Part shown: piece by piece, positions 15,601 through 61,719 of the stretch
Layout: each line of letters begins with the position of its first letter
How positions within the stretch are numbered: position 1 is the stretch's first letter
Assembly: GCA_025602915.1 (NCBI GenBank)
Contig: JAHLJZ010000067.1
Coordinates: forward strand, 62,001-126,000
Length of the DNA: 64,000 nucleotides
Direction of reading: 5' to 3'
DNA from: Paraphysoderma sedebokerense
Lineage: Eukaryota > Blastocladiomycota > Physodermatomycetes > Physodermatales > Physodermataceae
The notes under the pieces: generated by a model
Seen by the model: the letters and a program-made list of their open reading frames with translations, nothing else
Database searches by the model: none
Told to the model about the DNA's origin: nothing
Made by a program: the position numbers and the translations under genes

Positions 15601-18600
15601 TCGTCTTTTTTATCGGATTAGAATGGATGCAGCGTTGGCTCTCGCAAAAGTACGAAATAGCCATGTGCTAAGATTGAATTTTGTACTTACGCTCTTCCCT
15701 TTTATGTTCTGTAGTGTGCTATTCCGTCTCTTGACTACATTGGTTTACAGTTTCTGCTGACATTCTTTCACCGAAAGTATTGCTATGTCGAGTCGAATGA
15801 TTTCGTCGTACTCCCGAACGATTTCAGAGACCTGACGTCTTATTGGATCAAGCAGGTACTAAGCGTGTTCGCAGAGTAATTGTTCAAATTTTGTTAAACA
15901 TCCATTTGTTAGGCCGTTATTGCCGCGATTTCGAATGTTCGGGATGAGAATGGCACAACGCCATTAATTGTCAAGCAGTTTCTGGTAGATGTGTTCAGGT
16001 ACAATGATAACAGGATGAATGAAGTATGTCTATTTCTGCATTGGAACTGTGAATTAATATCACGTCATCGATTAACATAAATGAAGCAGCACTCCGACAT
16101 CCACTATGTTTCAAATTTTTTAAATTCTCTTTCAAATTCATTTATCAAACAATCCCCCGCTCATCAGTTGACGCATGATGAATCGTCGACTGCTTACTCC
16201 CAAAAGATAGCGACTACGTCTAGTGCAATCGAAGAAGAAATCATCGCTGAAGATATATTGGACTTATCGTCCGACGACGGTGAGGATTCTGACATTGATA
16301 GCCAAGTCGTTACCATGAATCGCACCGAATTTGAAAACTCCACAGAAAATGATTTGATGGAAAGAGTGTTGGAAGAGTTAGAACGATTGGTCATGATTCA
16401 ACGAATGGAAACTGGATATGGGGGCCTTATGCTCAAATCGTGTCTAGTTTTACTGACGAAATGGATGATGGCCGGGGTGATCAAGATTGATTTCCCATTA
16501 CTGTTAGAATTCACTCGGTTCGACGTTCCTTGCATCCGCCTTCGCTTGATTTTTATACTTATTATACCTTTACCGGTAGAACGACTTATCCATGCGATAT
16601 TCGTATCCAAGCCCTATCTTCCCTTATCTTACTAGAGGGGATGTACCATTCTTCCGTCTTAAAATACATTTTGTCGATTATTCAAGATGACCCCTCAATT
16701 TTTCTCCGAGTACACTTGACAAAGAATTTATTAAACTACTTTAAACTCATTGGAGGTGCCAGTAGGAACGGCAAGAAAGAAGAACGTGATCGGCAAGCCA
16801 GGGAACTAGTCAAGATGGCGAGGAAGAAAAGGCTGACGGAGAAGTTAAAGAAGGAAGTCGCAAATAGACCTGAATTTTTGTCAGGCATTTGGCAAATTAT
16901 AAGGTGTGTATCCCTTCCTTATGTGTGTGATGATTCCGGTTATTCATCTCTCTGCTCGTTTGCTCGTAGTCTGCCTATGTCCGATTCCATCATTAGAAAT
17001 TCCATTATGGAGATTTGTAATTTTATATATGATTCCCATGAGCCTCCTCGCCTGAAAATCAAGTTAGCCGACGGTGAAACTACAATACCAAAATCTCGTA
17101 TGTCCGCTCAATTTACACTGACTTCACAGTAGATGGGATATTGACTTGAATTAAAGGAAATCGTAGAACAGAAATTCGTTCACCGCTCAAAATCACTCTA
17201 CACACACGCCCGACATATCCCATCTATCCCCCTCCTGTAGCCGTTCTTCAACCGGGTCTTCAAATACTCGAGCGCATTAAAAATCATCAAGCTTCTGCGC
17301 CGTTTATGTTTCCGGTCGATAAATCTACACCACTATATTATGACATTATCAAGTATCCGATGGATTTGTCTACCGTTGAGAAAAACCTTCGAACTGGCTG
17401 GTATCACTCGTTAGACGATATGTATCGAGATATACGTTTGATTTTTTCAAACTGCTACACTTACAACCAGGATAGTTCCCCAATTTTTAACCAGGCCGAA
17501 ACTCTGGAGTATTACTTCGAGAACGAAATTCTTCCATCCATAACTGAATCAATTTTCCCAGAACCAATTGGGAATACTGATTCTGTAGAGAATATGATGG
17601 ATGTTGACAGTACTCGCCCCGTCTCTAAGTTGACGACAGAACAAATCAAACGTTTGAAGAAAATTTTACGAAAAGTTGCCAGTCATAAGTCATCTTGGCC
17701 GTTTCTTAATCCGGTGACAAATGTTCCCGGCTACTACGATATTATCCAGCATCCGATGGACCTTTCCACTATTCGTCGTAAACTGGAAGAAGGATACTAC
17801 AGCAGTCCGGAAGACTTTGAGAGTGATGTACGATTAATGTTTCGGAATTGTTTCACTTTCAACCGTAAAGGCGAGCTGGTACATAATGAAGGGAAGTCGT
17901 TGGAGGAAGTTTTCAATAAGGAGTGGGCCAGTTGTGACGAGGGAAACGAGAAGTATCCTGAAGCGACGCCAATGGTTGAATCTGCCTTACCATCAATCCC
18001 AATATCCATTACGCTTAAAAAGTCGAAACAAGAGGAAGTGCCCCTGCCTCCGGAGCCTGATGTTGTAGTCGCAAGTAGAGTTCCCACCGTGTCCCCATCG
18101 GAAGATAGGGAACTGTCGTCTCCTCCCATGATTGATGCCGATTACAAGAAATTGAGTGACCTACATATAAAACTTCAAAAACACAAATCTGCCTTTGGTA
18201 AGCATTCTTTTTGCCCCGATATCTTTCTCATAGCTAATTGAACGGTCAATTCAGATTTCTTATACCCCGTGGATCCAGTCGCCCTCGGGATTCCTCATTA
18301 CTTCGATGTGATCAAGCAGCCAATAGATTTAAGTACTATTGGTAAGAAGATTGTTGACCGCCTCTACCTTACTCCCTCTGCTTTCCGCGACGACATTTAC
18401 CTGATGATCAATAACGCTCTAAAGTTTAATTTACCTGACTCTATCGTTGTGAAGGAAGCAAGAAATCTGCAGACATATTTTGATAAGGAGTGGCGTTCGT
18501 TGTATGAGGCGAATGACAAAGGGAAGAAAAAGGAGAAGGACAAAGTGACCGAAACGCAGAAGCATAAAGAAGAACCCAAAGTCAAAATATCACTTGCTCT

Positions 18601-19524
18601 GACGAAGGCATTGACCAAAGAAGAAAAAAAGAAGCTTTTGGGCATACTGAAAAAGCTTTCTGGTCGAGTTGAAGCATTTCCATTTCTCGAACCCGTGGAC
18701 CCAGTCAAACTTAATATCCCGACTTATTTCGACATCATTAAACATCCCATGGATTTATCAACAATACGAAAGAAGTTAGATAATGATCAGTACAAGTCTG
18801 TTGATGATTTTGCTGCCGATCTTCGTCTCATGGTCGGTAATGCCTACAAATTTAACCCACCTGATCATATCGTTTACCAACATGCTAAAACGATGGAACA
18901 TGCATTTGATGGGATGCTTTCCGATTTCAAGAAACCATCCGTTACCAAAGTGCCGGCTGTCTCAACCAAACCGTTTGAATCGTCTAAGGCTCAAAAGATA
19001 TGGCAAAAAATTCATAGTCATCCGGATGCTTGGCCATTCCACGAACCAGTTGATGCGGTCGCGCTGAACATTCCGACATACTATGAGATTATTAAATGTC
19101 CTATGGATCTCGCTACAATCAAGAAAAAGCTCAATTCCAGGAGTTACCAGTCCAATGACGAATTCATGCAGGATATGAAACAAATTTTCACAAATTGCTA
19201 TACTTTTAATGCTCCCGGCACGTCTGTGCATGAAATGGGACTAAAGGTCGAGAAATCGTTGGAGGCAGAAGCCAAGAGATTGGGTTTCCTTACGATCAAG
19301 ACCGGCAGCCAGGTACGATTCTTGCAATTTGCTTTATGTCTTCTGCTAATAGGTTAACTATTTGATGATAGGATTCCGTGTCGTCAGGACTGAAAAGACA
19401 TCGAGAAGAGGACGAAAAGGAAAAGAAATCCAAGAAAGCGAAGAAAAGCGGATCCGCCGCACCGTCCGTTCAACCTTCACCCAATCCAGAGCAGCCGGCA
19501 TTAAAAATTCGATTCAAGTTTTAG
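12665..19524 (+). CDS. TAF2: TFIID subunit TAF2 fused to five C-terminal bromodomains
   Basis: TAF2 is the M1-aminopeptidase-like TFIID subunit that contacts promoter DNA near the initiator; it lacks peptidase activity. Recognisable pieces, in order: HQKLILEFDFENRVIFG (12665), HSLNCSTRIDVI, SRYWFPCID (about 13380), the ARAWFGGYV and KTWSDFW region (14030-14130), the GPLLLEIHEPSVTWPP block (from 14876), then HEAT-like helices (RALSHHPSAEVAAYLLRAL, RIRMDAALALAK, PCDIRIQALSSLI). The frame continues via an intron at about 17091-17153 (KSR/NRRTEIRS) into five bromodomains starting near 17290, 17690, 18190, 18660 and 19010. Each keeps the acetyl-lysine-binding Asn (CYTYN, CFTFN, ALKFN, AYKFN, CYTFN). 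A Lys-rich tail ends at TAG 19522-19524. At least a dozen short introns join in frame (for example 16518-16579 and 18198-18254). The first coding exon and start codon are unresolved. Confidence 0.9.
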
Positions 19525-23993: not shown

Positions 23994-26900
23994 ATGACAA
24001 TGGTTTCATGGGCATCTGCAACAGCTATTGCTGTCTCCCTCATATTGCTACCCGGTTGGGCTTCCGCGCAACTTAATCAAGCCTTTGTCGACCCTGCAGT
24101 CGGAGTAGATAATTTCACCTGTGGCTCCTTTAACTCTCCTTGCGAAACAATTTCTCAAGCTATTGGCCTGACTGTAGCTGGAGGGACTATCTTACTCAAA
24201 CCTGGTACCTACTCCAATTACAAGAACCTGGATTTGAACTTCGGAGGAAGAGGAATACAGTAAGTTTAACCCGATCTCGGTGAAATGAAGCCACCGGAGC
24301 CATTTGGAGTTCATACGAGTTCTACCATCTCGTGCATGGGTATTAACTTGGTTTGTAATCCTCTCCTCATGTATAGGTTGGCTTCTACCGATGGGCCTGA
24401 AGTCACAATAATCGATGCGGAAGGTAGAAGCCGAATTTTTGCTTTCAATAATAATGACCCCAACACAACTATGATTACGGGAGTCACACTTTATAGGTAA
24501 GTGGAGACATACCGAAATCCAAATTGTCAATATCAGTATACTGATTTTTGCTTCCAACTCTCGGGTTCAGAGGAGCGTCTCCCACCGGTGGTTGTGTATT
24601 AATAGGTGAAAATTCACATGTGGTGAGTACTCCTTTTTTATCTATTGAATCACAAATCAGGTCGATCTTAAAGAGTCGATATCCCTCAATGTTAATTGTT
24701 AGACAATTGTCAATTCTATTTTTCGTAACTGCGAAGCAAAACCAGTAATCGGCTATGGATGTAAGTCCGCTCTTATTAAAACTGAATTAATGCCTGAGCG
24801 CGCACTAATATTGAGCTCCAAGCTAACGGAATGGCGGCTAATTCTGGTGGTGCTATTTACGTCCGCAATGGAAATCTTCGTCTCGTCAATACGACATTCG
24901 AAAATAATAGGGCTCTTCGGTTTGCTGGCTCTGTATACGTGGATAATTCATATACCGGTACAGTCTGCCGAATTTCATACGTGATTTAATGGAAACCTAT
25001 TGAATATTTTATTACTTTAAAACCCTCATTTCGTCTAGATGTCAATAATTGTTCCTTCAACAACGACACCGCTTCCTTAGACGGTGGCTCTGTATACTAT
25101 AAAAGTGACATGAGCTCGAAACTAGTCAATTCTGTCTGGAAAAATTGTTCCGCCAATGCAAACGCGGGCGCCATTTTTGTCGAATCTGACTCAAATACTA
25201 CTGTGCAAGATTGTAAGTTTACATGTAACACAGCCGCTGAGGGCGGAGCAGGTACGGAACTCGTAGCAGAATCAGTATACAGGGAGCTCCAAATAATCAA
25301 TATATTTGGATCGATTTAGTTTTTCATGGGAACTCTGACAGATTATGGGTCAAAAACTCCGAATTTCGAGATAATAAAGCCCATAACGGGTCTGCTGCTA
25401 GAATAGCCGACTTCAGCTCCCCCATATACGAAAATTGCTCGTTCATCGTAAGTGTAAAATTCCTATCTTTGGTAATGATTTTTGAATGTTGACCTTCCGG
25501 CAGGCCAATAAAGCTGAGAGTTTTGGTACAGTGTACGCAGATGGTGCGGTAAACCTGACAATTAATCGATCTCTCTTCGCAATGAATTCTGCCAACCAAG
25601 GTGGTGGAGGTCTATATATGAACTCGAGAAGTAGTTCATCTATTGTCGATACATCGTTTTTCGAGAATAATTCATCTACACAAGGTGAGTGAACTCTTGT
25701 TAATCGATTGCGGTGCGCTGTTGGCTTATATGTGCTACCTTGTTTAGGTGGTGCTCTCTTGCTTGAAGATTCAGCCGTTGCCAGTATTGTGAATCTTGAA
25801 TGCGAGAAAAACCGAGCCGATATTGACGGCGGTTGTATCAAAGCCGCTAATCATGTGCGTTTAGTTATTGCGAACTCTACAATCAAAGAAAATTCTGGAT
25901 CTGTTTACGCTGGTGGTCTGCTCATCGAAGATCGAGTAACTGCCAGCCTAACAAATATTTCGCTGATTTCCAACAAAGCCGGTCAATCTGGAGGAGCATT
26001 GTGGTTAACTGGATACTCTGCTCTCTCGGCTGACAACTGCACGTTTGCGGACAACACTGCTGATGAAAATGGTGGTGGGATTGTGGTTAATTATAATAGT
26101 CGCTTCACTGCGAAAACTCTTAATTTGGTTAATAACTCCGCCGGAAGGGGTGGTGCACTGTTTCTTCAATCGAAAACCCCGATTAATGTTGAATCAAGCA
26201 CTTTCGCCACCAACGAAGCTGACTTCGGTGCTGCCGTGTACATTGATGTGCCGAGTAAGAATAATGAAATCAAAAATTCAAAATTTAAAATGAATAGAGC
26301 GCAGTATGGGGGAATTATCTACTACAACGAGTAAGTTCGAAATTATAAAACATAGCCGGCACTATCAATTCATTTGCTGATTGTTGTTGATTTCGTAGCT
26401 GGGCGAAACTTTTAGATTGTGATTGCGCCTTCACCGACAACAGTGCTGCGTACGGACTAACTGAAGCAACTAAGCCTAGGTGGTTAAAATCAACCCAACC
26501 GTTGATGTTTTCAGTTCCAAGGAACGAAAAATTCAATATTTCTGCTACTTTAACGGATCATTTTGGGAATGTTGTTACATCTGGTTATAATATCGCCAAT
26601 TTACGTCCGACAAGCCCAACAAAAAATGAACATGTGAACATAACTGCGTTTGGTGTTGCGACGACATCCGAGATACCCTTTATTGATAGTGCGGTCAACT
26701 TTGTCGTCGCTACCTCGCTTGAAGTCGGGAAGATGGTTCATCTCGAATTGACTGCTAATCAAAAGGGTGTCAAATCATTGATGTATATGGTTACTATCAC
26801 AGATACAAGCGATCAATTGAAGTCCGATGGAACTGGCAAATTTGGGTTTGGTGGCATAATGTTTGCGTTGTTGGTGGTCGGGGGTGTGACGGCAGCCGTA

Positions 26901-26999
26901 TGGAGGGTACGAAGTCGACAAGCCCGGCACAACCGTGATGTAAAGTCGTACCAAAATTTAAACGAATTGAGCGATATACAAAGGACAAACGTGCATTAA
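23994..26999 (+). CDS. Secreted/type I membrane protein with parallel beta-helix (pectin-lyase-like) ectodomain
   Basis: Start chosen at 23994 because MTMVSWASATAIAVSLILLP plus GWASAQ is a clean signal peptide (an in-frame ATG 18 bases upstream is possible). About ten exons join in frame through short GT-AG introns, for example 24260-24375, 24496-24570, 25685-25748 and 26332-26398. The ectodomain has many imperfect repeats of the right-handed beta-helix type, each with a Gly-Gly-(A/G)-(L/I/V)-(Y/F/W) turn and an NNSA/NKA asparagine ladder: NSGGAIYV, NQGGGGLYM, YAGGLLIEDR, QSGGALWLTG, NGGGIVVNYN, RGGALFLQS. Many N-glycosylation sequons occur. Near the C-terminus a membrane helix (FGGIMFALLVVGGVTAAVW) is followed by a basic cytosolic tail. 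Similar folds occur in surface and adhesin-like proteins and in carbohydrate-active enzymes; no catalytic motif is visible. Likely a cell-surface protein of unknown ligand. Confidence 0.75.
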
Positions 27000-27427: not shown

Positions 27428-29497
27428 ATGGAGGAAAAACTGTACGGTGAGTCGTCCGTACAAAAGTCCGTACAGGACAATGAAGCCGGCCCTAGTTACA
27501 TAGCGTCCCCAACTTCTCTACTTTCGCCACCTCCAAACTACGATGAAGCTATAAATGTTTCTGCGGCAATAAAGCAGCAACATGTCGTAACTATCCCTCA
27601 GGATAATCCCCCGCCTTCTCCTCCCAACTATAACAAAACTACAAGTTTCCGAAACCAATCTCTCTGTGTGCAAATCGTGTCGATAGTAGTCTTTCCGTTT
27701 TACTTCGTCTTCTTTGATTTCATCCCGTGGTTATACAACTCATTTGAGAAGCTTATCATTACGATATGGGATACTGCTTGCAATGCAGTCAATTTTATAG
27801 GACTGTGTATCTACAATTACATTCTTTGCCCGATAGACAATGCTATAAACTGGGTGGGTAGAATGGTGTACGAAGCCATATGCTTTACAGGACTGTTTAT
27901 CTACAATTACATTCTTTGCCCGATAGATAATGGTATAAACTGGCTGGGTAAAATGGTGTACAAAACCATATGTGGTGTGTACTCTGGCTTCGTTGCCGTT
28001 TTACGTGGCATCTATCTTTTCATTATCATTCCCATTGGAATTGCTATTTCTGTGACTGGTAAGTTCATTTATAACTGGATAATCATTCCCATATGGAACG
28101 GAATTTGTGCTGTTGGGCGAGGAATCGTGTCTCTCGTTGTCATGATTAAAAATTGCATAGTGGCAACCGTATCATTCATTTATCGACGCATCATGGTACC
28201 AGTTTGGAATGGAATTTGTGCTGTCGTCAGGTTTTTTATAAGTGCTGTGAACTTTCTTTTCAATTGTTTTATCAGATATGTCGTCATTCCGATTAAGACA
28301 GCAATCGTTTTTCTTTGGACATGGCTTGTCTACATGCCAATCCGATACTTCCTTCTCGGCATTAAAATATTCTTGCAAGGTATATGGTGGCTCCTCGGTT
28401 GGACGTATTCAAATGTCATTGTTCCCACTTGCAAGTTCATCGCTCGTTCTTTTGTCACCTTTCTCCGATTTCTTTTGGTATACGTATTCGCTCCGATCCG
28501 AAAAATTGTGGGTTTTATTATCACTTGGTTCATCATTATGCCAATCGTTACCGTCATTCACGGAATTAAACGCTTCTTTGAAGCTGCCTGGTTTAGTATC
28601 GTCTGGATTTGTACTAATGTTATTGCTCCTACATTGCGCTTTTTCCGCCGATGCTGCATTGCAACATATCATTTCATTTGTGATGCCATTGTCTTCTTAT
28701 ACACTTGGCTGATTTACATGCCAATCAAATATTTCTTTATCGGTCTCGCGAAGTGCTGGCATTTCTTCTGTTTAGGTTGCGTCGCTTTCTATCGCGCATT
28801 TATCAACTACATTCTTATACCCTTACAAATTTCCATTCTATTTCTATGGAAGTGGCTTATCGTTACTCCGATTACTTATTTCTGTCTCGGAGTAAAACGA
28901 TTATACCAAGCCTTTGTTTTTGCTGTTTCGTGGATATGGACGAATGTGGTCATCGGATGCTTCCTCCGACCGATTTATCTTGCGTTGAAGTTCATTTTTA
29001 ATCAAATGTTTATTTTCGCGATGAATGTCTTTATGGCTTGCAAAAGTTTATCAAAAGCCATTGGTCGTTTTGTTTGGAAATGGATTTTAAACCCTATTTG
29101 GACAGGTCTATGTTGGGTGGCTTCTGGAATCAAGTTAATCGTAATGACAACAGTGGTAGCAATACGCGATGTCATGCATGCTACTGCTTCGGCGATCAAA
29201 TACGTTGTCGTTACTATTGCAACTGCAATCAAAGACCTCTTCGTCGCCATCGGTCAGACTTTCCGAGATTTTATTGTCATACCAATTCGAAATGTTATAG
29301 TGGGGACAATAACGTTTATTGTGGATGGTATTCTGGTTCCGATGAGAAATCTAGTTAGAGATGTGATGCTTTCTATGGTCTCTTTTGTCAAAGAGACAGT
29401 GCTGGCTATCAAAATGAGTATTTCCGGAACAATGAAGGACATCAGGAATGCCCTTAGAGAAGTCATGGGAAGTGTTAGTAATGAGTCTCCTGCTTAG
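27428..29497 (+). CDS. Unrecognised 689-aa protein: PPxY-containing tail plus long hydrophobic proline-punctuated repeats
   Basis: An intron-free ORF. Residues 1-72 are hydrophilic and carry two PPxY-type motifs (SPPPNYDEA and PSPPNYNKT) that could bind WW-domain proteins such as Rsp5/Nedd4-type ubiquitin ligases. From about residue 80 to the end there are roughly a dozen hydrophobic, aromatic-rich segments, many ending in (I/V)xP(I/V)(W)xxI, such as YNYILCPIDNAINWVGRMVY, IIPIWNGICAVGRG, MVPVWNGICAV, VIPIKTAIVFLWTW, LIPLQISILFLW, LNPIWTGLCWV and VIPIRNVIVG. No signal peptide is evident. The C-terminal quarter becomes amphipathic. Repeats 1 and 2 arise from an exact 90-nt tandem unit (27800-27889 and 27890-27979). 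The next gene is a paralogue. No known family comes to mind; it may be a membrane-associated scaffold or reticulon-like membrane shaper (inference). Confidence 0.75.
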   Translation: MEEKLYGESSVQKSVQDNEAGPSYIASPTSLLSPPPNYDEAINVSAAIKQQHVVTIPQDNPPPSPPNYNKTTSFRNQSLCVQIVSIVVFPFYFVFFDFIPWLYNSFEKLIITIWDTACNAVNFIGLCIYNYILCPIDNAINWVGRMVYEAICFTGLFIYNYILCPIDNGINWLGKMVYKTICGVYSGFVAVLRGIYLFIIIPIGIAISVTGKFIYNWIIIPIWNGICAVGRGIVSLVVMIKNCIVATVSFIYRRIMVPVWNGICAVVRFFISAVNFLFNCFIRYVVIPIKTAIVFLWTWLVYMPIRYFLLGIKIFLQGIWWLLGWTYSNVIVPTCKFIARSFVTFLRFLLVYVFAPIRKIVGFIITWFIIMPIVTVIHGIKRFFEAAWFSIVWICTNVIAPTLRFFRRCCIATYHFICDAIVFLYTWLIYMPIKYFFIGLAKCWHFFCLGCVAFYRAFINYILIPLQISILFLWKWLIVTPITYFCLGVKRLYQAFVFAVSWIWTNVVIGCFLRPIYLALKFIFNQMFIFAMNVFMACKSLSKAIGRFVWKWILNPIWTGLCWVASGIKLIVMTTVVAIRDVMHATASAIKYVVVTIATAIKDLFVAIGQTFRDFIVIPIRNVIVGTITFIVDGILVPMRNLVRDVMLSMVSFVKETVLAIKMSISGTMKDIRNALREVMGSVSNESPA

Positions 29498-29534
29498 ATC
29501 TATCTGATATTGTTCCCTGCCTTCACAATGCTGT

Positions 29535-29546
29535 AAATAAATAAAA
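29535..29546 (+). terminator. Tandem poly(A) signals AATAAATAAA
   Basis: Overlapping AATAAA hexamers about 40 bases after the stop of the 689-aa gene, giving a short 3'-UTR before the paralogue at 29787. Confidence 0.45.
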
Positions 29547-29786
29547 CCGTTCAGTTACAAATTGGGAGTTACACTATCAATTAAAGATATCTTTCATTTT
29601 TGTTCTTGGAAATTTCTGCTTTCATAGTCGCGCCGTTTCGCTGCTATTTTTGGTAGGAAGCGGCGAACCTGGACAATAAGCATATGATGACTTATACAAG
29701 ACGAGCGATGAACCACATATATAGTACAAGAACATGAAAGGAGTCTACCAGTTCTAATAGCATTCACCTACATCGCAGATAACCCA

Positions 29787-31079
29787 ATGAGTGATCATTT
29801 GTCTACGGACAAGACGATTGAGGAATCTTCACCGGACGACATATCGAAGAACCCTCCGCCACCGAGCTATAGCTCTTCACCATCGCCGTCGATATCAGAT
29901 AGAACCGAGTCTCAGGAAAATATCAATACCCCCAGCCATTATATTGAAGTACCCCATGAAAATGTTGATTCAACAGCCCCGCCAACATACGACAACACTA
30001 CAAGTTTTGAAAACCAAACCTTTGGTGTTAAAATTGCTTCAGTATTTTGCCTTCCGTTCTACGTTGTATTCGTCGATTTCATCCCATGGGTTTACCACTC
30101 AACAATAAAACTGATTTCAGTCCTATGGCATGCAATACTTACCGCCGAAAAATATATTGCCTCCGCTATATCTCATTTTTTCGTTTTACCGATCAGTATC
30201 GCCATTTCTTGGACTGTGTCTGCCATCTTGTTGATCTGCTCCAAAATCTGGGCCGGCGTAGTCGCTGCATATAATGCAATTTATATATGGATTCTATGTC
30301 CAATTGGGAGAACATTGGCGGAAATACTGACATTCGTAGTAGATTATATTGTCAAGCCAGTTATCGCTGGTATTGAAGCTGTCTTCTCCGGGTTCAATCG
30401 ATATATAATTCAACCGATTTGGGCGGGTATCTGCGCTATCGGTTCCGCTATCCTTAAAGGTTTCAAATTTGTGTACAACAGAATCTTAGTACCTATCTGG
30501 AAATTTATATGCCTTTGCGCGATTTCCACATATCACTTCAGCATTGATTACATCTTTATTCCAACGCTCAAGTTCTTTGCGCTACTATTTAAATATTTAT
30601 TCCTCATACCCGCAACTTATTTCGTCAAAGGAGTGAAATGGCTAGGTTCTACCGTAGGGTCTGGTTTATTATGGATATGGCATCAACTATTAGTGGCCTA
30701 CATTCTCCGACCGATATGGGGTGCTATCAAGTACATTTCCAATGGTTTATATGTGTTCGCCATGAACGTATTTATGGCTTGCAAAAGTTTATCGAGCGCT
30801 ATCGGCAATTTTATATGGAAATGGTTTTTAAATCCTATATGGAAAGGTATAACTTGGGTTGGCAGGTCTATCAAAAATTGGTTCATATTACCAATCTGGA
30901 ACATACTGGTATCTGTTAAACGATGGATTGCGAGCAGCATTGTTTTACCCCTGATGAGTTCGGTGCTAGGAATGCTCAAGGGTATAGGGAGGTTGTTGAA
31001 ATCAATGAAAAACAGCATTACCGCCACTTTGAGTCAAGTACGAAAGAACGTCAGATCAATATTCCGACAATCATCATGA
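29787..31079 (+). CDS. Paralogue of the preceding gene: PPxY tail plus hydrophobic repeats (430 aa)
   Basis: An intron-free ORF on the same strand, 290 bases after its neighbour. The N-terminal 80 residues are acidic and Ser/Pro-rich, with PPPPSYSSS and APPTYDNTT (two PPxY motifs). It then shares two blocks with the 689-aa protein. The first is TTSFENQTFGVKIAS with LPFYVVFVDFIPW, corresponding to TTSFRNQSLCVQIVS with FPFYFVFFDFIPW. The second is VFAMNVFMACKSLSSAIGNF with WKWFLNPIW, corresponding to VFAMNVFMACKSLSKAIGRF with WKWILNPIW. Between them lie fewer repeats of the xxPIxxxI kind (VLPISIAISW, ILCPIGRTLAE, IIQPIWAGICAIG, LVPIWKFICL). The C-terminus is basic and amphipathic. The pair clearly arose by tandem duplication followed by loss or gain of repeats. 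Function unknown. Confidence 0.75.
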   Translation: MSDHLSTDKTIEESSPDDISKNPPPPSYSSSPSPSISDRTESQENINTPSHYIEVPHENVDSTAPPTYDNTTSFENQTFGVKIASVFCLPFYVVFVDFIPWVYHSTIKLISVLWHAILTAEKYIASAISHFFVLPISIAISWTVSAILLICSKIWAGVVAAYNAIYIWILCPIGRTLAEILTFVVDYIVKPVIAGIEAVFSGFNRYIIQPIWAGICAIGSAILKGFKFVYNRILVPIWKFICLCAISTYHFSIDYIFIPTLKFFALLFKYLFLIPATYFVKGVKWLGSTVGSGLLWIWHQLLVAYILRPIWGAIKYISNGLYVFAMNVFMACKSLSSAIGNFIWKWFLNPIWKGITWVGRSIKNWFILPIWNILVSVKRWIASSIVLPLMSSVLGMLKGIGRLLKSMKNSITATLSQVRKNVRSIFRQSS

Positions 31080-31250: not shown

Positions 31251-31263
31251 AGTATAAAATAAA
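31251..31263 (+). terminator. Poly(A) signal of the 430-aa gene
   Basis: TATAAAATAAAG contains AATAAA about 170 bases after the stop codon. Confidence 0.35.
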
Positions 31264-31953: not shown

Positions 31954-34900
31954 ATGAACTATTATCTGATTATTTCCGTGTTAAGGTGAGTTTTATTTTA
32001 TCCATATGCTCACGGCGAGCGCGCTGCAGCATCAAATACCGTTAGAATTATTGCAACTGACATCTGGTTAATCGTTACGTTTAGCGCGCTTCTGAATATC
32101 CTTCTTGTACCAGCACAATCGCAATCCACACAACCAAGATTTGATGCTCAAGCCCGTCTCACAAAGTCTTGGAAATCAGATCCATCTTCCTCTTCTCATT
32201 TCGTGGAAGTCCCATCCTACATTATCGTCATTACGGCCTCAACATTTGATGGAAAGTCGGAGTCGCAAGTCCCACTGTCGAATACTGAGCTCCTCATCCG
32301 CCCTTCTTCGACAGCTTCATTTTTGTTAGATGATCTTTCCGGCTTGATTGTCGAGAAAAAATATACCCATGAGCAAACCTTCAAACTTACTACCAACTCA
32401 CTTGGTCGTGTATCATTTTCAATCGTCTCACCTCTTACATCGATCAAAGCGCCGGGACTTTACATCCGTTCAAATCAAATGGAGAAAGACAAGTGGGTGT
32501 TAATGTATCCGGATGTAGATGTGATTAATCAGTTGAAGAACCTGGATGATAGTGTGTTCAAAGAGCTGAATCCAAACTTGACTCCAGAAACTGTGAAAAG
32601 TACCAACGAGTTAGTGAAACGAGTGATGAATTTGGCAATTTGGAGCGACCTCAATATCGAAAAAGAACGAAAAGTGAAGCGCCTGGTTAAAAGAACGCTT
32701 CCACCAAGCACTGCATCAAGAATGATGAAGAAGAGAGATATCGATGCAGACAAAGAATTCCATTATGAGCGGGAAACTTCGGCAATGATGACCTGGATTG
32801 TGGAAGATACCCCCGACAATATTAGACGTGAATTACCAAAACCAAAATCATATTGGGTCTATTCCTTGTCATCTACAAATTCTACTTCCACATCGTCATC
32901 CAACTCCTCCGGTTTCAATTCACCCGCCGCGGTCTTCACTCCTAACCCTCCACGCCGCATGTTAAGACGTCTCAACAAGCGTGATGACGATGAAGAGGAT
33001 GATGATGATAAATTACCCCGAATCCCTTCCGTGTTTGACCCGTCGAAAGACGAGGTTAAATCCATCTCGACCGTACCGGAAAGACCTAAAGGATTTATAG
33101 CGATAATCAAAAATAGTATTGGTAAATTATTCGAAATGGTCGTAGAAACAGTAAAAGATGCTGTCGAAGTATTGAAAGGGGTGTTTAAAAAAGTAGGAAT
33201 CGAATTAAAGGTTAGTGAAATGTTCCGTTATGCGGTCTAATCTCATGCTGGAGTTTTATTTTTAACCACCAATATTTATTTCTATAGGAGCTAAAGAAGA
33301 AAATCATGGTAGTTACACTTCATTTTCAATTAGATAGCATTAGACGAACTTCTAACGATATTCTGCTTTCAATTCCCAGGCCAAATTTAACTTTGAAGCC
33401 ATTTCACGATCTCAGAAATTTCTGTCTCACTACTTTAGGACATTAATGCCAATTTCCAAAAAAGCAGCTGAAAGCAAGAAAGAACAGTGGGTGACTTACA
33501 TGAACAATGGTATAAATGATATTTCTGTATATCCGCACCGTGGGATTCCTGCTAACTGTAATGTTTCCGAACTTGAATTCTAAATTACTAAATATGCACG
33601 ACAAAACCTTCAATTATAATCGTTAGCCACCCAAAATGCGTTCGACTCAATCGATCACCTCGCCTCCAAAATTAATGGCCAACCTTCCATTGATAAATTC
33701 AAAAACGGAGCCTCTTCAAAGCAGTCGTCAAAGGATCCAACCAAGCGACCTGACCTCGGTTCTACTTCTATCATGGGAAAATTTGTGGAAGACAGACTCA
33801 TTGGTCACCTGCCAAATGCAGCAATTTCGTCTTCAACATCTGACCCTGCGAATAAAACTACTTCCAATGCGATCCAAGCCCTTGCCGATCTTTCCAAAAA
33901 TTTCACCACATCGCTATCATCCATATCTTTCCCTTCGTCTTTGACTTCACTTTCTAATTCCAGTACGTTGCTCACCGGAAACATCTTTCAGCAAACCTTT
34001 TCATCGTTACTTTTGCAGTCGAAAAAACTCCTGCATGGGATGAACAGTTTTGTCTCCTCGATTGTAGTCAAAATGATTCAATACATAGACATGATGTTGA
34101 AGCTGTTCGACAATTTGTTGGAAATCAAGCTTGAAATACCGTTTTTTAGCAAATGGTGGAAAGGAGTTGTGCAAAATGATACGAAGAAAGACAACGTGAA
34201 AGCGAAAGAGGATGGTGATGGAATGACTGTATTGGATCTATTTACATGGTTCGGTGCGGGTGTGTTTACTTGGGGTAACTTTATCTCCACGTTCAATTTC
34301 CCCCAAGGTTCTTTTTAAAACCAAGTTTTCCCGATAAACAGATTATATGGCTTGGAAATCATCAGAGCCTTTCACTTCCACCGATATGTCAGTTCTCCTA
34401 AACTCGCACAACCCGTTTTTCTTTGCAGAAGATTACACTCGCAATACTTTGACTGGTGTACCGAGTGAGAAGAAAAGATATAAATTTAGGTGCAAATTTG
34501 ACTGGGCTTTGCAAGCTACAAAGGTCAGTTATGAATCTTGATCCTCCTAGAATAGCATCTTTATTTTGAATATAGCTTGACATGTTTCATTCTTTGCAAT
34601 GATTCCCCTTATTTTTCTTCGATTTATACAATTCACAATCATCTAGCTGTCAATGTCTTTAATCAAGGTTGCTGTCGCGTTGGCAATGGAGTTCGGCTCG
34701 TCGACACAGAAAGCAGCTTTAGGCGTGTTGGTTAGCGTAAACAGTTTTATTAGTGCCGGGACTACGTATCCAGTATGTTTGCAGTTCATTGCATAATAAG
34801 CGTTCATAGAAAGGTTACTGACATCATCTGGTAGCTCACACATATGACCGGGGAATTATCAGAAAAGACATTGAACAAAGCCGTCGATAATATTTTACCG

Positions 34901-43214: not shown

Positions 43215-43830
43215 TTGCTTAGAAACAGTGAAAATCGCTTGACCTATATATTCCTTAATTTGTGGCCTCTTTGTTAATTGCTTAAATTCTAGAGATTTGA
43301 GGCTTAATGTTCCCGACGGTGTACACAACCGCAGCTGCGTGATCAGACAGTGATATCCCAGTACGCTCATCTGACGAATCAACACGATAGGATTAAGGAT
43401 GATTGCTGACACCCCATTTTGCCAGCGGGGCAAATCTACATTGTCGAACGTTGTTACTATTGTCCACGATTGTGTCTTCTAAGCCAGTCTAAGCAGAATT
43501 CAGAGGTTGCAACACTGCGCGACCGTGATCGCCACCGCGACGCCAACCACCAGCATGAGCAGCAGATAGATGTCCAATTTGTGCTCTGCGAAAATTCAAT
43601 GTGCTTTCAGAAGCGATGACTTTGCTTTGCCATTCTGTTGTAAGAAAAGGATATAAATGTCCCCGCAACTTCCCTTCATTTTTCTCCATTTTCAGGACAT
43701 TCATTCCTCCATTTTCCTGCTTAAGAAACACGTTAGAGTGAAATCATTCTCCTCAGTTTCAAGTCTCCTTGTCCAAATCAGACACATCTGGCCATTCTGA
43801 TTTTACATCTTAAAGCCCGTATTGTTCAGC
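43215..43830. other. Spacer upstream of hexose transporter 1
   Basis: No gene recognised; overlapping short ORFs on both strands at 43419-43731 have no family features. CT-rich stretches near 43670-43720 probably belong to the transporter promoter. Confidence 0.35.
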
Positions 43831-45996
43831 ATGCCCCTCAGTATCAGCCTCAGCCTTTCAAATGCTTTAGGTAAGCAGGAGCATCAAACTCCGCCATCTA
43901 CTTTTTCTGCCATCTAGACTTTGACCCCGCTCCCCGCAACTTTAAAAAAATATTCTAAATGCCAAGTTTGCTTCGTTAGGAACGATGCCTTCTTCAAACC
44001 GTTACTCTATTTTTGTGTCTATCGCTGCGTCGGTGGGCGGTGTACTGTTTGGTTACGAAATAGCAGTCATCAATCAAGTGTTCCTTCTAAAATCGTTCAA
44101 ATCGTATTTCAACCTCGAAAACAGTGCAAGACGCTACGATGATGCCACTGGGAATGTCGTTATGTCATTTTTGATTGGTTGTATGTTAGGCGCTATGATG
44201 TTGGCATTTATTGCAGGTACGTTTTGTGAAGGAAGAATTTAGAATGCCTCTGTACTTTCAGTCTGACCGGGACACCGGGACTGCGCACGACTTGGCCACA
44301 AATTGTTTACTTATATTTTATTATTTTTGTTTCATCATTTATAGATTTGCTTGGTCGAAAACGTTCAATATGGCTGGGATCTATTTTATTCTCCTTGGCC
44401 GGAATTTCTCAAGCGTTCAGCATTAATCTGTGGATGTTATTAGCAGGTTCGCTACTACACAGATTTTACACTTTCCCTTTAAATGTCCATTGACATCTAT
44501 TTTGTCATTTAGGACGATTAATAGCTGGTTTCGGCGTTGGGATTTTATCAATGACAGTGCCGTTGTATATCAGTGAAATTTCCCCTACCGCGATCCGAGG
44601 ACGAATGACATCCCTCAACCAACTGATGATCACCATCGGTATCGCTCTAGCTAATATCGTCAATGCCATTCTTAGAGTATCATTCGAGGAATCAAATCAT
44701 CTGAACTGGCGTATCGCTTTCGGACTTCAATCTGTGCCCTCGGTAATTTTACTCGTGGGCTCAATTTTCCTACCTTATTCCCCGCGGTGGCTGTTACTCC
44801 GAGATCGCCCGGTAGAAGCGTTAAATGTATTGGCAAAACTGAGAGGTGATACTATGCAGAGTGGCATGGTGCAGAGAGAGTTTTGGCAAATTAAAGAATC
44901 TGTAGATGAGGAAGTTATGAGGGGAAGGAAATTGAAATATCTGTTGAAACCGGGTATCCTGAATCGAGTCGTGATCGCTAGTTGTCTACAATTTTTTCAA
45001 CAATGGAGTGGTATCAACGCCGTGATGTACTATTCTAGCCGGTCGGTACTACCTTTACTGAACTGATGGGGTCACATTGATATCTGATTTCCTTTTCCAG
45101 GTTGTTCCAAGGTTTTGGATTTGACGCAAAGACTGCCGCCGTGATTAATACTGTTATTGGAAGCATTGTCAACGTTGTCGGTACTCTACCTGGTTTATAC
45201 TTTATCGAACGAGCTGGCCGTCGAAAATGTTTGATAGTGGGTGGAATAGTCATGTCGATATCTATGTGGGGACTCGTCGCCGTCATGAACGTTTATTTCA
45301 GCAAAGCATATCAACAGCAAGTTTTCAGTATTGATAAGTTAAATGCAGGAGATATTGGTTTATGGGTTGCTATCGGCGGCAGCTGTTTAATTTATCTCTG
45401 TAAGTTTGCAATTTCGCAACTGGTCCTTTCAATTTTTGTAAAGTGAATTGTTTCATGTTTACTAACGATCCATTTCTCTACTCAAACGACAGATACCGCC
45501 GCATTTGCCATGTCATGGGGTCCCGTTGTATGGGTTTATCAATCCGAGGTAAATAAGACAAACTAGTTGTTATTCGACACTCTACAATCTGCATGAACTA
45601 ATCACATTCCATTAGATTTTTCCTATTCACGTTCGTGGCGCTGCAACCAGTATCGCAACCTTATCAAACTGGACAAACAACGCTATCCTCGCCAAAGTAT
45701 GGCCATACGCACAAACTTACCTCGAAGGCAACCAATATATCGTCTTCGGAATCACAACGCTATTATCTGTTATCTACGTTAAATATTTCGTCGTCGAAAC
45801 TAGAAATTGTTCACTCGAAGAAGTGGGGTTCTTGTTTAACCAGGGAAAAGGACAAGATTATGGAACTAAATATGATCGGTCTTATCTCCAAGACAGTTTG
45901 GGAAGGATACAACGAAACCAAAACCAAATGGAGATTCATCCTGAATTGGGTCGGAATGAAAGGCCGTATGGATTTGAAACAAGTTACTGGAAATGA
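43831..45996 (+). CDS. Hexose-type MFS transporter 1 (547 aa, seven exons), diverged motifs
   Basis: A plasma-membrane sugar transporter of the Hxt/MST type with 12 predicted membrane helices. Exons: 43831-43870, 43980-44216, 44345-44446, 44513-45041, 45101-45399, 45493-45548 and 45616-45996; 1644 nt in frame. Visible family motifs: VGGVLFGYEIAVINQ (helix 1), DLLGRKRS, GRLIAGFGVGILSMTVPLYI with SEISPTAIRG, QQWSGINAVMYYSSR, ERAGRRK and SWGPVVWVYQSEIFP. Two usually strong motifs are altered: PESPRWL is PYSPRWL, and the C-terminal PETKG is VETRN. It lies 2 kb upstream of, and is paralogous to, transporter 2 at 48055, and uses more AT-ending codons. It may be a less active or specialised copy. 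Confidence 0.9.
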
Positions 45997-48054
45997 GTCT
46001 GGATTCCGTTATCAATTTGTCGGTTTATGTAGATAATACTTTTGTAAAGTCATTGACCTAATTTTTTTTATGGATCACACATTCTGTCAGACGACATATT
46101 ACTTAATACACTGCCTTGTAAATATAATAAAATAAAATATTTTTGACTGGTGAGATTCAATTGGTCTTGTTCTGCTTTTGGATGTGCCAAATGATAAGAT
46201 GTTCTTTGAAAACTCCGTCACGATATCTTACAACACACTACATACCTTCGTTGATACGTCAACCGGTTGAGATTGGAAGCAGCATTAGTCCACAATTCAC
46301 ATACGCAAAATATCTGTGAAATTTTTAGATTGAGTGGGTAGTATCAACAAGTACTAAAGTCTTCCGCCTGCCACTCTGCTGAAGGCCGCGGCAGTTGAAG
46401 GTCTCGCGAATTGTCAGTTCCTACGGTCAATTTTCGTAAATCCAACTATCATCCGATACAAATGCCCCATTTGAATACTCTTTCGTATCCAAAATTATTC
46501 TTGATTTCGCACAAACCAAATGTATTGAAGAGAACTGTCACATTACATCACGACGTACAATGTTTTCGAGTACCATGTGATTTGGTTGCCCAGCAATTAT
46601 CATAGTTTCGAAGCTTGTATATGTTTAAAAACTGATATCGCAGAGGCTGATTAAGTGCAAATCATGATTCATGGAAGGCTGAGGGAAGATGCTGATGGCA
46701 GCACCCAGCGTTGCGTTTTCCCAAAGATTCACACAGAAATTTGAAATTTGAGTATCTGTTTGCGGTGCTGAAATGCGAACATGTGGATCCGGATTAATTT
46801 TCCTACTGATCTGGTGTATGGTGCTAGTGATTTAATCAGACTTATTGGTTCTATATTTGTATTTATTGTTTACATTTTTCAAGTTGTACAATTGGTGTTT
46901 CTTTCACAATGATTATGTTTGAAAAAAAAAGATATCGACGAATTTTGCAGTATCAAGAAGATCTCATGAATGATTTATGGGTTTCAGATAAAGTTGATGA
47001 ACCGAGTCCAAGGAATAGATTTATGCCATAATTTCTTATCAGCTAAACAATCATGTGTGGGAAGCAGGGGGTATCTGAACTCTGAAGCCTAAAGATGTTT
47101 GAGCAAAAAGAAGTTTCAAAGCATCTCATACTGTGGCAAGCTGTTAATCAACTTTGATCAGCGGATTGGGTACCCGAGTGAAAGGGCCAGGCGATCGCGC
47201 AGGATAAGAGTGTTGATTATCCATGCAATCTTTAACAAGTAAGAAGCATGGCTAAATCATTTGCTAAAAGTTTGCACCCTTCAAGTTGACTGACAGAGTC
47301 ACAGAATTAGTTTAGATTGGGGCTGGGAGTCTCGGCGGAGAAGATGGTGCAAGTGTTTCAGCAGTTGGCGGGTTGGCGAATGGGTACAAACGCAAGTGTG
47401 TCGGATGTGAAAAATGCGGGGGTCGCAAAGATTTGGCAAATTAATTTACAGGAAATTCTCAGAGGGTGATTGCGTATTGTTTGTTTAAATTACTTTAATA
47501 TGTAAATCGAGTAATCTACTTTGCAATATTGGATAGAATCAGAGTTTACAGAATGTGTGTGGGGGCAGATAAAGGATCGCACGAGATGACGAAATGTCGA
47601 TAATCTATCTTGGGGCGATGGCGGTATAGGTCAGAGTTACAATCTGTTACAGTGAGGGAGGGTGGGCGGATGAGGTGGGTGCGCCCAAATAAGCAAGAAA
47701 GATTTTGTGACGAGGACAATGGGGCGAGAGTGTTTTTTGCGGGGGGTGGTGCTATTAGCGTAATATTGGGGGGGATGATACAGTGGTATTGTGATGCTGG
47801 ATTAATATTGGCGGCGGGGTCGGGCGTTGCGGAATGCGCATCAATTGTGGATAATGAGCGACACTTGGCAAGGAAAGCCAGAGCAAAGCGTTGTCGTGTG
47901 ACGCGCCAGAATCGCATTTAAACCAAGGGCGGCCCCCTGCTTCAAGTCCACCCTGCGGCCGTTCGCTTTTTTAACCCCCTCCCCACCCTCATTCCGCTCT
48001 ATCCCTCCTCCCCTATCATCTCGTCTCTCGTCTCTCAGCTGCTGTATATCAACC
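45997..48054. other. 2-kb spacer between the two transporters
   Basis: AATAAAATAAAAT near 46127-46140 serves transporter 1. I see no gene in 46150-47530. The part 47580-47930 is GC-richer, with overlapping ORFs on both strands that look like chance. The last 100 bases are very pyrimidine-rich. Confidence 0.4.
47971..48050 (+). promoter_or_regulatory. CT-rich core promoter/leader of hexose transporter 2
   Basis: A dense pyrimidine tract (ACCCCCTCCCCACCCTCATT, CCCTCCTCCCCTATCATCTC, TCTCGTCTCTCAG) lies immediately before the start codon at 48055. Such tracts mark strongly expressed fungal genes (established knowledge), which fits the C-ending codon bias of this gene. Confidence 0.45.
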
Positions 48055-50125
48055 ATGGGTATGTTGTTGTTGTCGTTGTTGTTGGACGCTATGCTATGTT
48101 GCCCCTCCCGTCCTTGCGCGCACTGGCTGCCCGTCCACAGTCCTGCGTATCGTACTTGTACTCACAGCTGTATATGATGTAAATTATTTGTTAAAAAAAA
48201 TATAGGTCAGACGCTTTACACATGGTTCGTCTCCTTCACGGCCGCCGTCGGAGGTCTCTTATTCGGTTACGAAATCGGTATCATCAACTCTGTGTTGGCC
48301 ATTGATTCTTTCCAAGTGAAATTCGGTTTGAACGAGTGGGCTCCTAATAGAGAAGAACTGTTTGAAAAGAAGGCCGATTTGTCCGTGAAAATTGCCAATA
48401 AAGCTCAGAGAGCTGACATTGAAGGAAACATCGTCTCTGCTTTCACTTTCGGTTGTATTATCGGTGCGCTTCTCATTGCTTTCGGCGCTGGTGTGTATCA
48501 TTTCCTTCCTCGATTGTGGCGCGGATTATACTAATTTTAATATACATCAATTTAAACTGACCGCTACTTTCAGATGTCCTTGGTCGTCGCAGATCTATCT
48601 GGCTTGGTTCCTTGCTATTTGTTCTTGGAGGTCTTGTTCAAGCTGTTGCTGAAACTGTCGGTGTCATGGTTGCTGGCCGTGGTATTGGTGGTGTTGGAAT
48701 CGGTATCTTGTCCCACAGTGTCCCTCTTTTCATCGCTGAAGTCGCCCCTACCAATATCCGTGGTACTCTCACATCCATCCAACAACTTATGATTACCATC
48801 GGTATCGCCATCGCCTCTATCGCTAACGCTATCATCATTACCGCCTTCTCATCATTCGCACAAAAGACCAACGATTTCATGTGGCGTCTTGCCTTGGGTA
48901 TCCAATGTGCACCCGGTATCATGCTTTTAGGTGCTCTTTTCTTCATTCCAGAATCTCCTCGTTGGTTGATCATGAAGGGCCGAGAAGATGAAGGTCTTAC
49001 TGCTCTTAGTCGATTACGATCTGCATCCCCCAAAGCTCCAGAAGTTCAAGAAGAATTTCATGAATTCAAACAATCCATCGAAGCCGAACGCTCAGTTGGT
49101 GAAGCCAACTGGTCAGAATTGCTTAGACCCGGTATCCGCAATCGTGTGGTGATTGGTCTTATCATTCAATGTTTCCAACAATGGACCGGTATCAACGCTG
49201 TGATGTACTACTCCTCCGCTCTTTATATTGGTATGGGTATCCCCAAAGCCACTGCCTCCACCGTCAACGTCGTCATCCAATCTTTGGTCAACGTCTTCGG
49301 TACCCTCCCCGGTATGTACCTCGTCGAAAGAGCCGGCCGTAAAAAGCTTCTCGTCTGGGGTGGTCTCGCTATGTCAGCCACTATGTGGGGTCTCGTTATC
49401 TTTGTCAATGCTCTCGAAACTGCCGTTGGTAAGGATCCGTCAGAATTGACCATTGATGATCCTCGTCCTCCGGTTGCCGCTACGTATGGTACCATTGCCG
49501 TCGTTCTCGTCTATGCGTAAGTCAATTTGTCCGCGCACTACTTCACCTAAAAATCATACTAATCGTGTTACATTCATTCTTCCTATTTCCTCATCTACTT
49601 GTCTGCTCTTACGTAATGTTCAGATATGTAAGTCGTCGTCTTATCAACTTCTATCTATTGGCAAGTGAATTAGTACTCACTATGTTCTTCTTTTTCCCTC
49701 GTGCTCTTCTCATTCCACTTGAACTTGCTTGAAACGAATAGGTCCTTTCTTTTGCTTCAACTTGGGGTCCCGTCGCTTGGGTTTACCAATCTGAGGTAAG
49801 CAACTCCCATTTACTGCTAACCAAAAACCATCTCACTAACCTCTTACCTTTTGTATCTATTTAGATTTTCCCTGCCCGTGTCCGTGGTAAAGGTACTGGT
49901 TTAGCCACTTCCTCCAACTGGATCAACAACTTTATCCTCTCAAAAGTCTGGCCGTACATCCAACTCTGGCGTGGAAACCAATACATTGTCCCTGGTTGTA
50001 CCGGTATCGCCATGGCTGCCTACTGTCAATTCTTTGTCCCTGAAACCAAGGGTCGCAGTTTAGAAGATATGGACGCCATTTTCGGATTCACTGGTGAAGA
50101 CAGAAATGATCATTTCAAAGCTTAG
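48055..50125 (+). CDS. Hexose-type MFS transporter 2 (516 aa), with 4-nt first exon and 4-nt microexon
   Basis: Sugar transporter of the Hxt/MST class. Exons: 48055-48058 (ATGG), 48206-48490, 48574-49516, 49624-49627 (ATAT), 49742-49795 and 49865-50125; 1551 nt in frame. Motifs are canonical: VGGLLFGYEIGIINSVLAI, DVLGRRRS, GRGIGGVGIGILSHSVPLFI with AEVAPTNIRG, FIPESPRWLI, QQWTGINAVMYYSSALYIG, ERAGRKK, STWGPVAWVYQSEIFPARVR and VPETKGRSLEDMDAIF. The 4-nt exon is needed: joining 49516 straight to 49742 shifts the frame, whereas with ATAT the product reads LVYAYVLSFASTWGP, matching LIYLYTAAFAMSWGP of transporter 1. Codons strongly favour C at the third position, unlike its neighbours, suggesting high expression. 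Confidence 0.93.
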
Positions 50126-58519: not shown

Positions 58520-59460
58520 ATTGCGGCTAGATATAAATAATTGACATTTGATATTTGTATAATAACTGGCATATGTGTGTACTGAAGAGGAAGATTTGTC
58601 ATTACTATTTAATTCTTAATATTGAAGTGGGCGACAGATTAATAACAATATTGGTCGATCAATACACCCCAACAATATTAAGGTGTTAAAGTGTTCAACA
58701 TGACGGTGACGCTCGACTTCCATTATGTATACTATATAGTCACATTTTTTTTCCTGTATAACAGATACGTTTTTATTAGCCTCATGTAAACCGCAGAAAT
58801 GGGATAAATATGCACTTTTGGCTTTTTTGAGACTGTAATTAAGGTTGTGCTTTTGTGGATTTTATGTCCGGATACATATTTAATTTTCCAAACGGATACG
58901 CTAGTTATATTTATCATATCAGTATCTGTGTGTTTCAATCGTGTAACTTACGATGATATCAGCAATCAACAACCCATATGTGTTTATAATTGTCTCTCTA
59001 GAATCCTATCCATCTTACTTGGGGGTTCTTTTCATTCCTCAACTACGATGGACGGTAGATGTTCCACGCGAATGTTCAGCAAAGCTGGCAAGGGCACACA
59101 AGCCATTGGGCGGTACGCAACGGACTGACGACCAGTTAATCTCGACAGTGATAGAGAAATATTCATAGTGTTGTAGGGAATTCTTGTGCCGGATCAATTG
59201 GATTGTTATCATCGCATCAATTATTTTGATTGAACCCGAGGTCTACGTGGATCTGTGTAGTCGAATGCATACGAATGGCATACATGGATTCAGCGGTCAT
59301 GTTTCGGGTAAACTATCAGGTGTTGGATCAACTTCGGAAATTTAGGGTCCGCGACAAAACTCTTGCGTTTCAGGATTCAGGAGCAGCGAGGCCGAAGAAA
59401 ATTCGCTATTCCGGAGACCTTTTTGTTAATTTTCATGTCTTTTTGAAAAAGCAGTAAAAT
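58520..59460. other. Spacer between family copies A and B
   Basis: From about 59170 (GTAGGGAATTCTTGTGCCGG, TTATCATCGCATCAATT) it resembles 56598 onward, and 59352 onward (CAAAACTCTTGCGTTTCAGG) resembles 56791 onward. Thus the tandem duplication of about 2.57 kb included upstream sequence. No other gene recognised. Confidence 0.5.
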
Positions 59461-60975: not shown

Positions 60976-61719
60976 ACCGCTGCTAGATAAGAATTAATTA
61001 TTCCTTAATTACTATCAAATGATAAAAGCATATGGTTATATTAATAATAACCAGTTAGTATTACTAGTAAATAACTAATAATGATGTGGTATCGGACCTT
61101 ATTAACAAAATTGGTCGAATAATACGACCAGCCAAATTGAGGTATTCAACATAATGGTGGCCTTTTCCGTCCATTCTGTTAACCACTTGAAGAAAGAAGC
61201 CAGTCAATTTTATGGATATTTGTGATTTTGCTTTCCTATAATTGTTAAAAATCCATTGAATCAACGAACAATTACTTCTAAGAATCTAGCCGGTTTCTAT
61301 ACTTGTGGGACATGATTCGCTTGGCTCTAGTTTTGCAGACCAGTGGAATCGAGATCAATGTCTAGATTTCTTCCTAAGGGGGAATAATCAAAAATTTGAT
61401 TATGAGTTTGTACATATTTTTTGATCAATGGCGCATCCAGTATTCGTGCCACGATTCGTTTAAGAACTAGCAAGCTGTTTCATCGCCAGCAGGAGCCCGC
61501 ACAAGGGGAAGCGTGTTCTACGGATCTACATTATATTTTGTTGCATTAGACAGGATGAATGTTTTCGAAGTTTGACATGATGCAAAGCAACATTGATGTC
61601 CAATGCGGGCATTAGAATTTCTCAAGAAAATCGGTTAGTTCATTCTGTTTGGCTTTCATGAGAGAGCTAGGATATCCTTAATTCTTTGCTTACATCAGAG
61701 TGAAAACAATTGGGCCGAT
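60976..61719. other. Spacer between family copies B and C
   Basis: No recognised gene. Unlike the A-B spacer it shows no obvious copy of the upstream repeat, consistent with C being an older duplicate. Confidence 0.35.

Follow-up and report, generated by a model that had tools for sequence, protein, structure and literature searches.

Results

The 64,000-nucleotide stretch of DNA analysed here (the window) contains two adjacent open reading frames (ORFs), which we call p1 and p2, whose products join a polar tail carrying two PPxY (PY) motifs to a long hydrophobic body, and which we tentatively propose to be lipid-surface-anchored adaptors of an Rsp5/NEDD4-type ubiquitin ligase. All features of the pair lie on the + strand. 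The single open frame of p1 spans positions 27428..29497 (689 amino acids), and that of its tandem paralogue p2 spans 29787..31079 (430 amino acids); two overlapping AATAAA words (29536..29545) stand 3′ of the p1 stop and one (31258..31263) stands 3′ of the p2 stop, and these we take to be poly(A) signals. Over 424 aligned codons the two proteins are 39% identical, with differences at 45%, 33% and 65% of codon positions 1, 2 and 3, respectively, and with 35 of 51 fourfold sites within identical residues differing between the two genes. Because the substitutions track codon position and the fourfold sites have diverged, p1 and p2 appear to be old paralogues under protein-level constraint and not chance ORFs; judged from their sequence, both are reading frames long maintained as proteins.

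Residues 1–75 of p1 (27428..27652) form a polar, proline-rich tail with PPxY motifs at residues 35–38 (27530..27541) and 65–68 (27620..27631), and the polar tail of p2 is of like length (about 75 residues), with its motifs at residues 25–28 (29859..29870) and 65–68 (29979..29990). When the 75-residue tail was shuffled, at least two PPxY motifs arose in 36 of 20,000 (p1) and 15 of 20,000 (p2) trials. The first 77 (p1) or 80 (p2) residues contain no hydrophobic segment and, because the first such segment begins only at residue 78–81, the tail is probably cytosolic; in a low-confidence model the helix of p1 starts at residue 74–79. An entry block with the consensus TTSFxNQ...FxDFIPW occupies residues 71–101 of both proteins (TTSFRNQ...FFDFIPW in p1, 27638..27730; TTSFENQ...FVDFIPW in p2, 29997..30089). 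Further along is an exit block, FAMNVFMACKSLS, which is identical at 13 of 13 positions between p1 (residues 529–542, 29012..29053) and p2 (residues 323–336, 30753..30794). An earlier note on this DNA had described a tandem pair of 689 and 430 residues that differ in repeat number and share two N-terminal PPxY motifs, an entry block and an exit block; both ORFs are indeed open at these coordinates, and all of these elements are present in p1 and p2.

The body (residues 100–684 of p1, 27725..29479; residues 100–429 of p2, 30084..31073) is amphipathic, with an 11-residue periodicity that restarts at prolines. In particular, the hydrophobic period of proline-free segments was 98.0°, or 3.67 residues per turn, in p1 (19 segments) and 99.0°, or 3.64 residues per turn, in p2 (12 segments); the peak was matched by 0 of 300 within-segment shuffles in each protein. 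When the count is restarted at every proline, the pattern reads P-I-x-x-x-I-x-x-V-x-[K/R]. Positions 1, 5 and 8 (modulo 11) after prolines are I, L, V, F or M in 75% (p1) and 76% (p2) of cases, a share equalled by 0 of 5,000 (p1) and 1 of 5,000 (p2) random anchor sets, and they are charged at just 1 of 106 places in p1 and 1 of 66 in p2. K/R, D/E and N/Q residues gather opposite the hydrophobic face and, with both flanks counted, the prolines stand at 64–80° to that face (0–8 of 2,000 random sets equal this). Both proteins show the 11-residue hydrophobic periodicity that serves as a criterion for exchangeable apolipoproteins and 3-11 helices. The repeats of about 30 residues proposed in the earlier note do not hold up as such: there is no regular 30-mer, the body prolines are spaced 16–63 residues apart, and the underlying unit is 11 residues. 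A test of the proline spacings gave 0/5,000 when pooled (with a null range of 15–42, yet one spacing of 63), 176/5,000 for distinct spacings only, and 17/5,000 and 1/5,000 per protein; these tests are not independent, because modules repeat spacings.

A module some 65 residues long appears, from sequence comparison, to account for most of the size difference between p1 and p2, with a further contribution from a 90-bp in-frame tandem duplication in p1 (27794..27972; 91% identical). The module occurs four times in p1, as A (residues 285–347, 28280..28468), B (residues 353–415, 28484..28672), a partial C (residues 413–461, 28664..28810, overlapping B by three residues as cut) and D (residues 462–527, 28811..29008), and once in p2 (residues 256–321, 30552..30749), the boundaries having been picked by eye after inspection. 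D is both the counterpart and the best partner of the p2 module (38%, z 10.9 against p2 256–321). Among the alignments of the 10 module pairs, 7 were equalled by 0 of 300 shuffles and those of A with the p2 module and of C with D by 1 of 300; the alignment of C with the p2 module was not significant (19 of 300 shuffles equal). Prolines in A, B, D and the p2 module are spaced by 16 and then by 29–34 residues. Self-BLAST of p1 and p2 (E 1e-3) returned the full self-match alone and no internal repeats, the modules being visible by direct alignment. Modules and duplication together suggest that length was gained stepwise, with the pattern kept.

No credible relative of p1 or p2 was found in Pfam, NCBIfam, PDB sequences, 5.8 billion proteins, or viral and prokaryotic contigs, so that the suggestion that they belong to no known family is upheld within the searches made; the weak Pfam and PDB matches look like chance. 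Protein searches with p2 (6,244 candidates), with p1 and p2 together (3,718 candidates) and with residues 501–580 of p1 (3 candidates) recovered the window's own proteins alone. (Note that these searches require shared five-residue words or conserved peptides, limit candidate length and draw on a set whose eukaryote share is uncertain, and kin in other fungi may exist that they do not see.) Scans of viral (56 pattern stretches) and prokaryotic (68) contigs gave no confirmed relative, and in the genome to which the window belongs (27.29 Mb in 195 contigs; three first-look candidates per search) matches fell only in p1 and p2. Profiles for the senescence domain (PF06911), perilipin (PF03036) and apolipoproteins in Pfam did not match either protein, nor did PF10176 (Ndfip/Bsd2) at E ≤ 1; a search for perilipin in the same genome was silent, but its controls were silent too. 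PDB sequences gave no match to p1 and none to the two-sequence profile. For p2 alone there were 46 matches at E ≤ 1 (best E 0.0041, 19.2 bits), mostly to antibody heavy chains over residues ~320–364, a likeness we take to be chance because the two-sequence profile loses it and antibodies are abundant in the PDB. A sub-threshold Pfam match of p1 to prephenate dehydratase (16.8 bits against a cut-off of 25.2) we ascribe to composition. Among the literature matches listed, neither a PY tail joined to a giant amphipathic helix nor so hydrophobic a proline-punctuated repeat is described; PY tails and giant amphipathic helices are each known separately, and their union would be what is new.

A candidate partner for the tails is encoded in the same genome. 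On contig C6, stretches of locus L028 match, in this order and on one strand, C2 (PF00168), WW (twice within a single stretch) and HECT (PF00632); of the six stretches scanned, each separately, four match one of these domains. The order C2–WW–HECT is, at the level of predicted domains, the Rsp5/NEDD4 architecture, and both WW domains of one L028 exon carry the motif VDHN, presumably that of the PPxY-binding class of WW domain. PPxY motifs and predicted C2-WW-HECT ligase exons occur together in this genome, as would be expected for an Rsp5/NEDD4 adaptor in the functional sense, and the proposal in the earlier note that the PPxY motifs point to an Rsp5-type ligase gains support from these neighbouring exons. 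Alternatively, the motifs might bind WW proteins other than Rsp5 and so tether another machine to membranes: the genome holds 17 WW matches (15 of them above the cut-off), and 13 of the 17 lie on contigs other than C6. Rsp5-type ligases are, however, the classic readers of PPxY motifs on membrane proteins, and we consider a different WW partner improbable. Matches to the radial-spoke family on two contigs indicate that the source is probably flagellated, and most likely a zoosporic fungus.

Separately, the genome contains equal-scoring matches to a HECT gene at C123:35431-36532 and 43400-44501, 8 kb apart, and to a senescence-domain gene at C98:73550-74099 and C102:4264-4813; these duplicate matches are either recent duplications or assembly haplotypes.

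Discussion

Our best reading, to which we assign a probability of a little over 0.4, is that p1 and p2 are lipid-surface-anchored Rsp5 adaptors, in which a proline-punctuated amphipathic body would hold the protein to a lipid surface and the PPxY tail would recruit and activate the cell's own Rsp5/NEDD4-type ligase, so that they would work like spartin or Ndfip/Bsd2 while being members of neither family. The body would act as a long landing strip, with its I/L/V/F face sunk into a leaflet or the surface of an oil droplet and its K/R/N/Q face turned to the water, and the tail, on the presumed cytosolic side, would offer its two PY motifs to the ligase. Many copies on one surface could then form a dense PY array that would switch on the NEDD4-type ligase, and the activated ligase would ubiquitinate neighbouring membrane or droplet proteins. 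Candidate surfaces are the lipid droplet, the endoplasmic reticulum and the endosome; as a first guess we favour the lipid droplet. Precedents exist for the separate steps: tethering to membranes or polymerisation of PY substrates or adaptors strongly boosts NEDD4 ligase activity (Mund and Pelham, PMC5892558), NDFIP2 requires multiple PY motifs (PMC12720080), the PPAY motif of spartin brings AIP4 to lipid droplets (PMC2887783), and 11-residue repeats fold as 3-11 helices in apolipoproteins, synuclein and perilipin 4 (PMC5889406).

How the body meets the membrane was assessed against controls from the window, namely two exons of PF00083 sugar transporters and one hydrophobic ORF that matches no family, together with a soluble HEAT-repeat control. 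The power ratio at 95–100° was 2.30 in p1 and 2.62 in p2, compared with 0.98–1.17 in the three hydrophobic control frames, and 10-residue windows with at least three charges made up 3.9% (p1) and 0.7% (p2), compared with 15.9–29.0%. Read jointly with the lack of loops and the strong hydrophobicity, the helix signal points to a surface-embedded helix. Of the functions that the earlier note had suggested, bending of a membrane or contact with lipid agrees with the amphipathic pattern of 11 residues. A pore-like stack would accommodate the variable number of hydrophobic repeats, but the absent polar loops and a spectrum unlike that of the transporter exons favour a surface-lying helix over it, and we regard a pore as very improbable. 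The structure models bear on this as well, although they are too weak to weigh. AlphaFold2 with the two sequences as input gave a nearly unbroken helix outside the tail (in p2, residues 71–201, 208–333 and 338–429), with no bundle recognisable in the helix lists and not the pure disorder that the note had named as the outcome to speak against it, and Foldseek with the p2 model found no match at E ≤ 0.001 (five matches, best E 4.5). These modelled helices are compatible with a surface helix and no proof of one.

Several observations weigh against a lipid-surface adaptor. The angle at which the prolines stand to the hydrophobic face depends on the side considered, being 26–48° for the preceding and 88–105° for the following residues; the face therefore appears to turn by about 50° at each proline (mean turn 50° and 58°), and a single face continuous through all prolines is weakly indicated (equalled in 3/60 and 2/60 controls). 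Many segments, taken singly, do not have a significant 98-degree moment. The mean hydrophobicity (H) of the body, 0.87 in p1 and 0.81 in p2, is far above that of the amphipathic helices it resembles, and its composition is 17.5% (p1) and 16.0% (p2) aromatic and 11% charged. The soluble HEAT-repeat control reached a power ratio of 1.99, so the ratio alone indicates a helix, not a membrane. The AlphaFold2 models are of low confidence (predicted local distance difference test 46 and 55; predicted template-modelling score 0.23 and 0.28), and a prediction made from two sequences could fall back on helix by default. The two copies of the 90-bp duplication differ by seven non-synonymous and one synonymous codon over 29 codons, with no sign of tight constraint there. 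Finally, a senescence-domain gene (PF06911) lies elsewhere in the genome, and a Bsd2/Ndfip-type gene (PF10176) lies on contig C28, separate from p1 and p2.

The extreme hydrophobicity of the body makes transmembrane hairpins a real rival, in which p1 and p2 would be multipass or multi-hairpin Rsp5 adaptors of the Ndfip/Bsd2/Sna3 working type, with the body binding transmembrane cargo and the tail bringing Rsp5 by the same logic as in Ndfip (PMC12720080). On Wimley-White scales, the core of the bilayer is preferred to its interface by 63% (p1) and 47% (p2) of 19-residue windows, compared with 29, 29 and 35% in the three multipass control frames, polar loops included, and many 19-residue Kyte-Doolittle segments exceed 1.6; the first of these results also tells against the surface reading. 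However, the body is nearly without polar loops, its K/R residues occur throughout the chain, on one side of the helix, its spectrum differs from that of the window's transporter exons, and neither protein matches PF10176, while a gene that does so sits on C28. We consider a transmembrane adaptor possible but doubtful. With respect to the body itself, a surface helix is fairly probable when all readings that use it are summed, and transmembrane hairpins are rather unlikely.

A surface helix need not make p1 and p2 adaptors, and they could instead be a structural coat or curvature scaffold, perilipin- or apolipoprotein-like, whose PPxY tails serve solely for their own ubiquitination and turnover. 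This would agree with the 11-residue period and the punctuating prolines, both of which exchangeable apolipoproteins also have, with the setting of length by module copy number, and with the lysines in the tails; yet the retention of two PPxY motifs in both paralogues, which are 39% identical, suggests a role beyond that of a degradation tag, and the composition is unlike that of perilipin 4. A coat of this kind seems to us distinctly unlikely. Exchangeable apolipoproteins have regular proline-punctuated 22-mers, whereas the proline spacings of p1 and p2 range from 16 to 63 and no apolipoprotein profile in Pfam matches them. Furthermore, apoA-I is secreted, and p1 and p2 have no N-terminal hydrophobic signal. 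What they would share with apoA-I is an amphipathic 3-11 helix with kink-inducing prolines (7 in 186 residues; PMC5889406 Table 1), although apoA-I, at 35% charged and 6.5% aromatic residues in the same table, differs from p1 and p2 with their 11% charged residues and PPxY tail. Perilipin 4 likewise has a repeat-built amphipathic helix with an 11-residue period that runs over hundreds of residues, but it is described as weakly hydrophobic, with 0.2% aromatic residues and 33-mers without indels between them (PMC5889406), whereas p1 and p2 are 16–17.5% aromatic and their prolines are irregularly spaced.

The likeness of p1 and p2 to PY adaptors is, on their side, a prediction. Known PY adaptors reach membranes via an arrestin fold, a lipid-binding domain or a short bundle of transmembrane segments. 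The body of Ndfip1/2 and yeast Bsd2 (PF10176) consists of three transmembrane helices, which in p1 and p2, themselves without a PF10176 match, are replaced by hundreds of residues of amphipathic repeat; what would be common to both is a multi-PY tail on a membrane-embedded body (PMC12720080). Similarly, spartin (SPG20), with its MIT domain, PPAY motif and senescence domain, has a PPxY motif that brings in a NEDD4-type ligase and a lipid-binding region that serves as its anchor on a lipid surface (PMC2887783), but p1 and p2 lack the senescence domain (PF06911), carry two motifs in an N-terminal tail and have proline-punctuated repeats as the anchor.

If the adaptor reading is true, NEDD4-type ligases would be clustered on one surface in a different way, by a proline-punctuated giant helix that is anchor and array in one, and the natural length series of p2 and p1, with one and four modules, could be used to probe this idea. 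A more far-reaching proposal, which we hold to be on the unlikely side, is that the pair represents a new class of protein: giant amphipathic helices of extreme hydrophobicity, rich in isoleucine and aromatic residues and kinked by prolines that stand at a favoured angle to the hydrophobic side, which would act as length-tunable landing strips on a lipid surface and gather PPxY arrays to switch on Rsp5 at that site, the tandem pair being long and short versions made by module gain. Chytrid zoospores have a prominent lipid globule (PMC8887899; the word perilipin does not occur in the main text of that article), and a lipid-surface ubiquitin adaptor would be of interest in a cell of this type, a link that is a guess.

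Other genes in the window

The genes around the pair are eukaryotic and include bromodomain, F-box and WD40 exons, Vps8 with a fungal RING profile, SF3B1 and sugar transporters. Directly upstream of p1, at 23998-26999, is an apparently multi-exon gene with a secreted-protein-like start; its stretch at 25708-26334 matches right-handed beta-helix and Chlamydia PMP-type repeats (PF13229, PF02415), and its seeming end, at 26502-26999, has a transmembrane segment and a short tail with no family match. Just downstream of p2, at 32203-34318, are two ORFs without a Pfam match that are possibly parts of one gene. Three similar-looking tandem ORFs (starting at 57077, 59461 and 61720) occupy 57077-63027 and have no Pfam match at E ≤ 0.001; those at 59461 and 61720 start with a signal-like hydrophobic stretch. 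Two adjoining sugar-transporter stretches (PF00083) lie at 44551-49520, and at 17306-19357 five bromodomain matches are distributed over two adjoining ORFs (two and three, respectively), in the manner of a polybromo-like gene.

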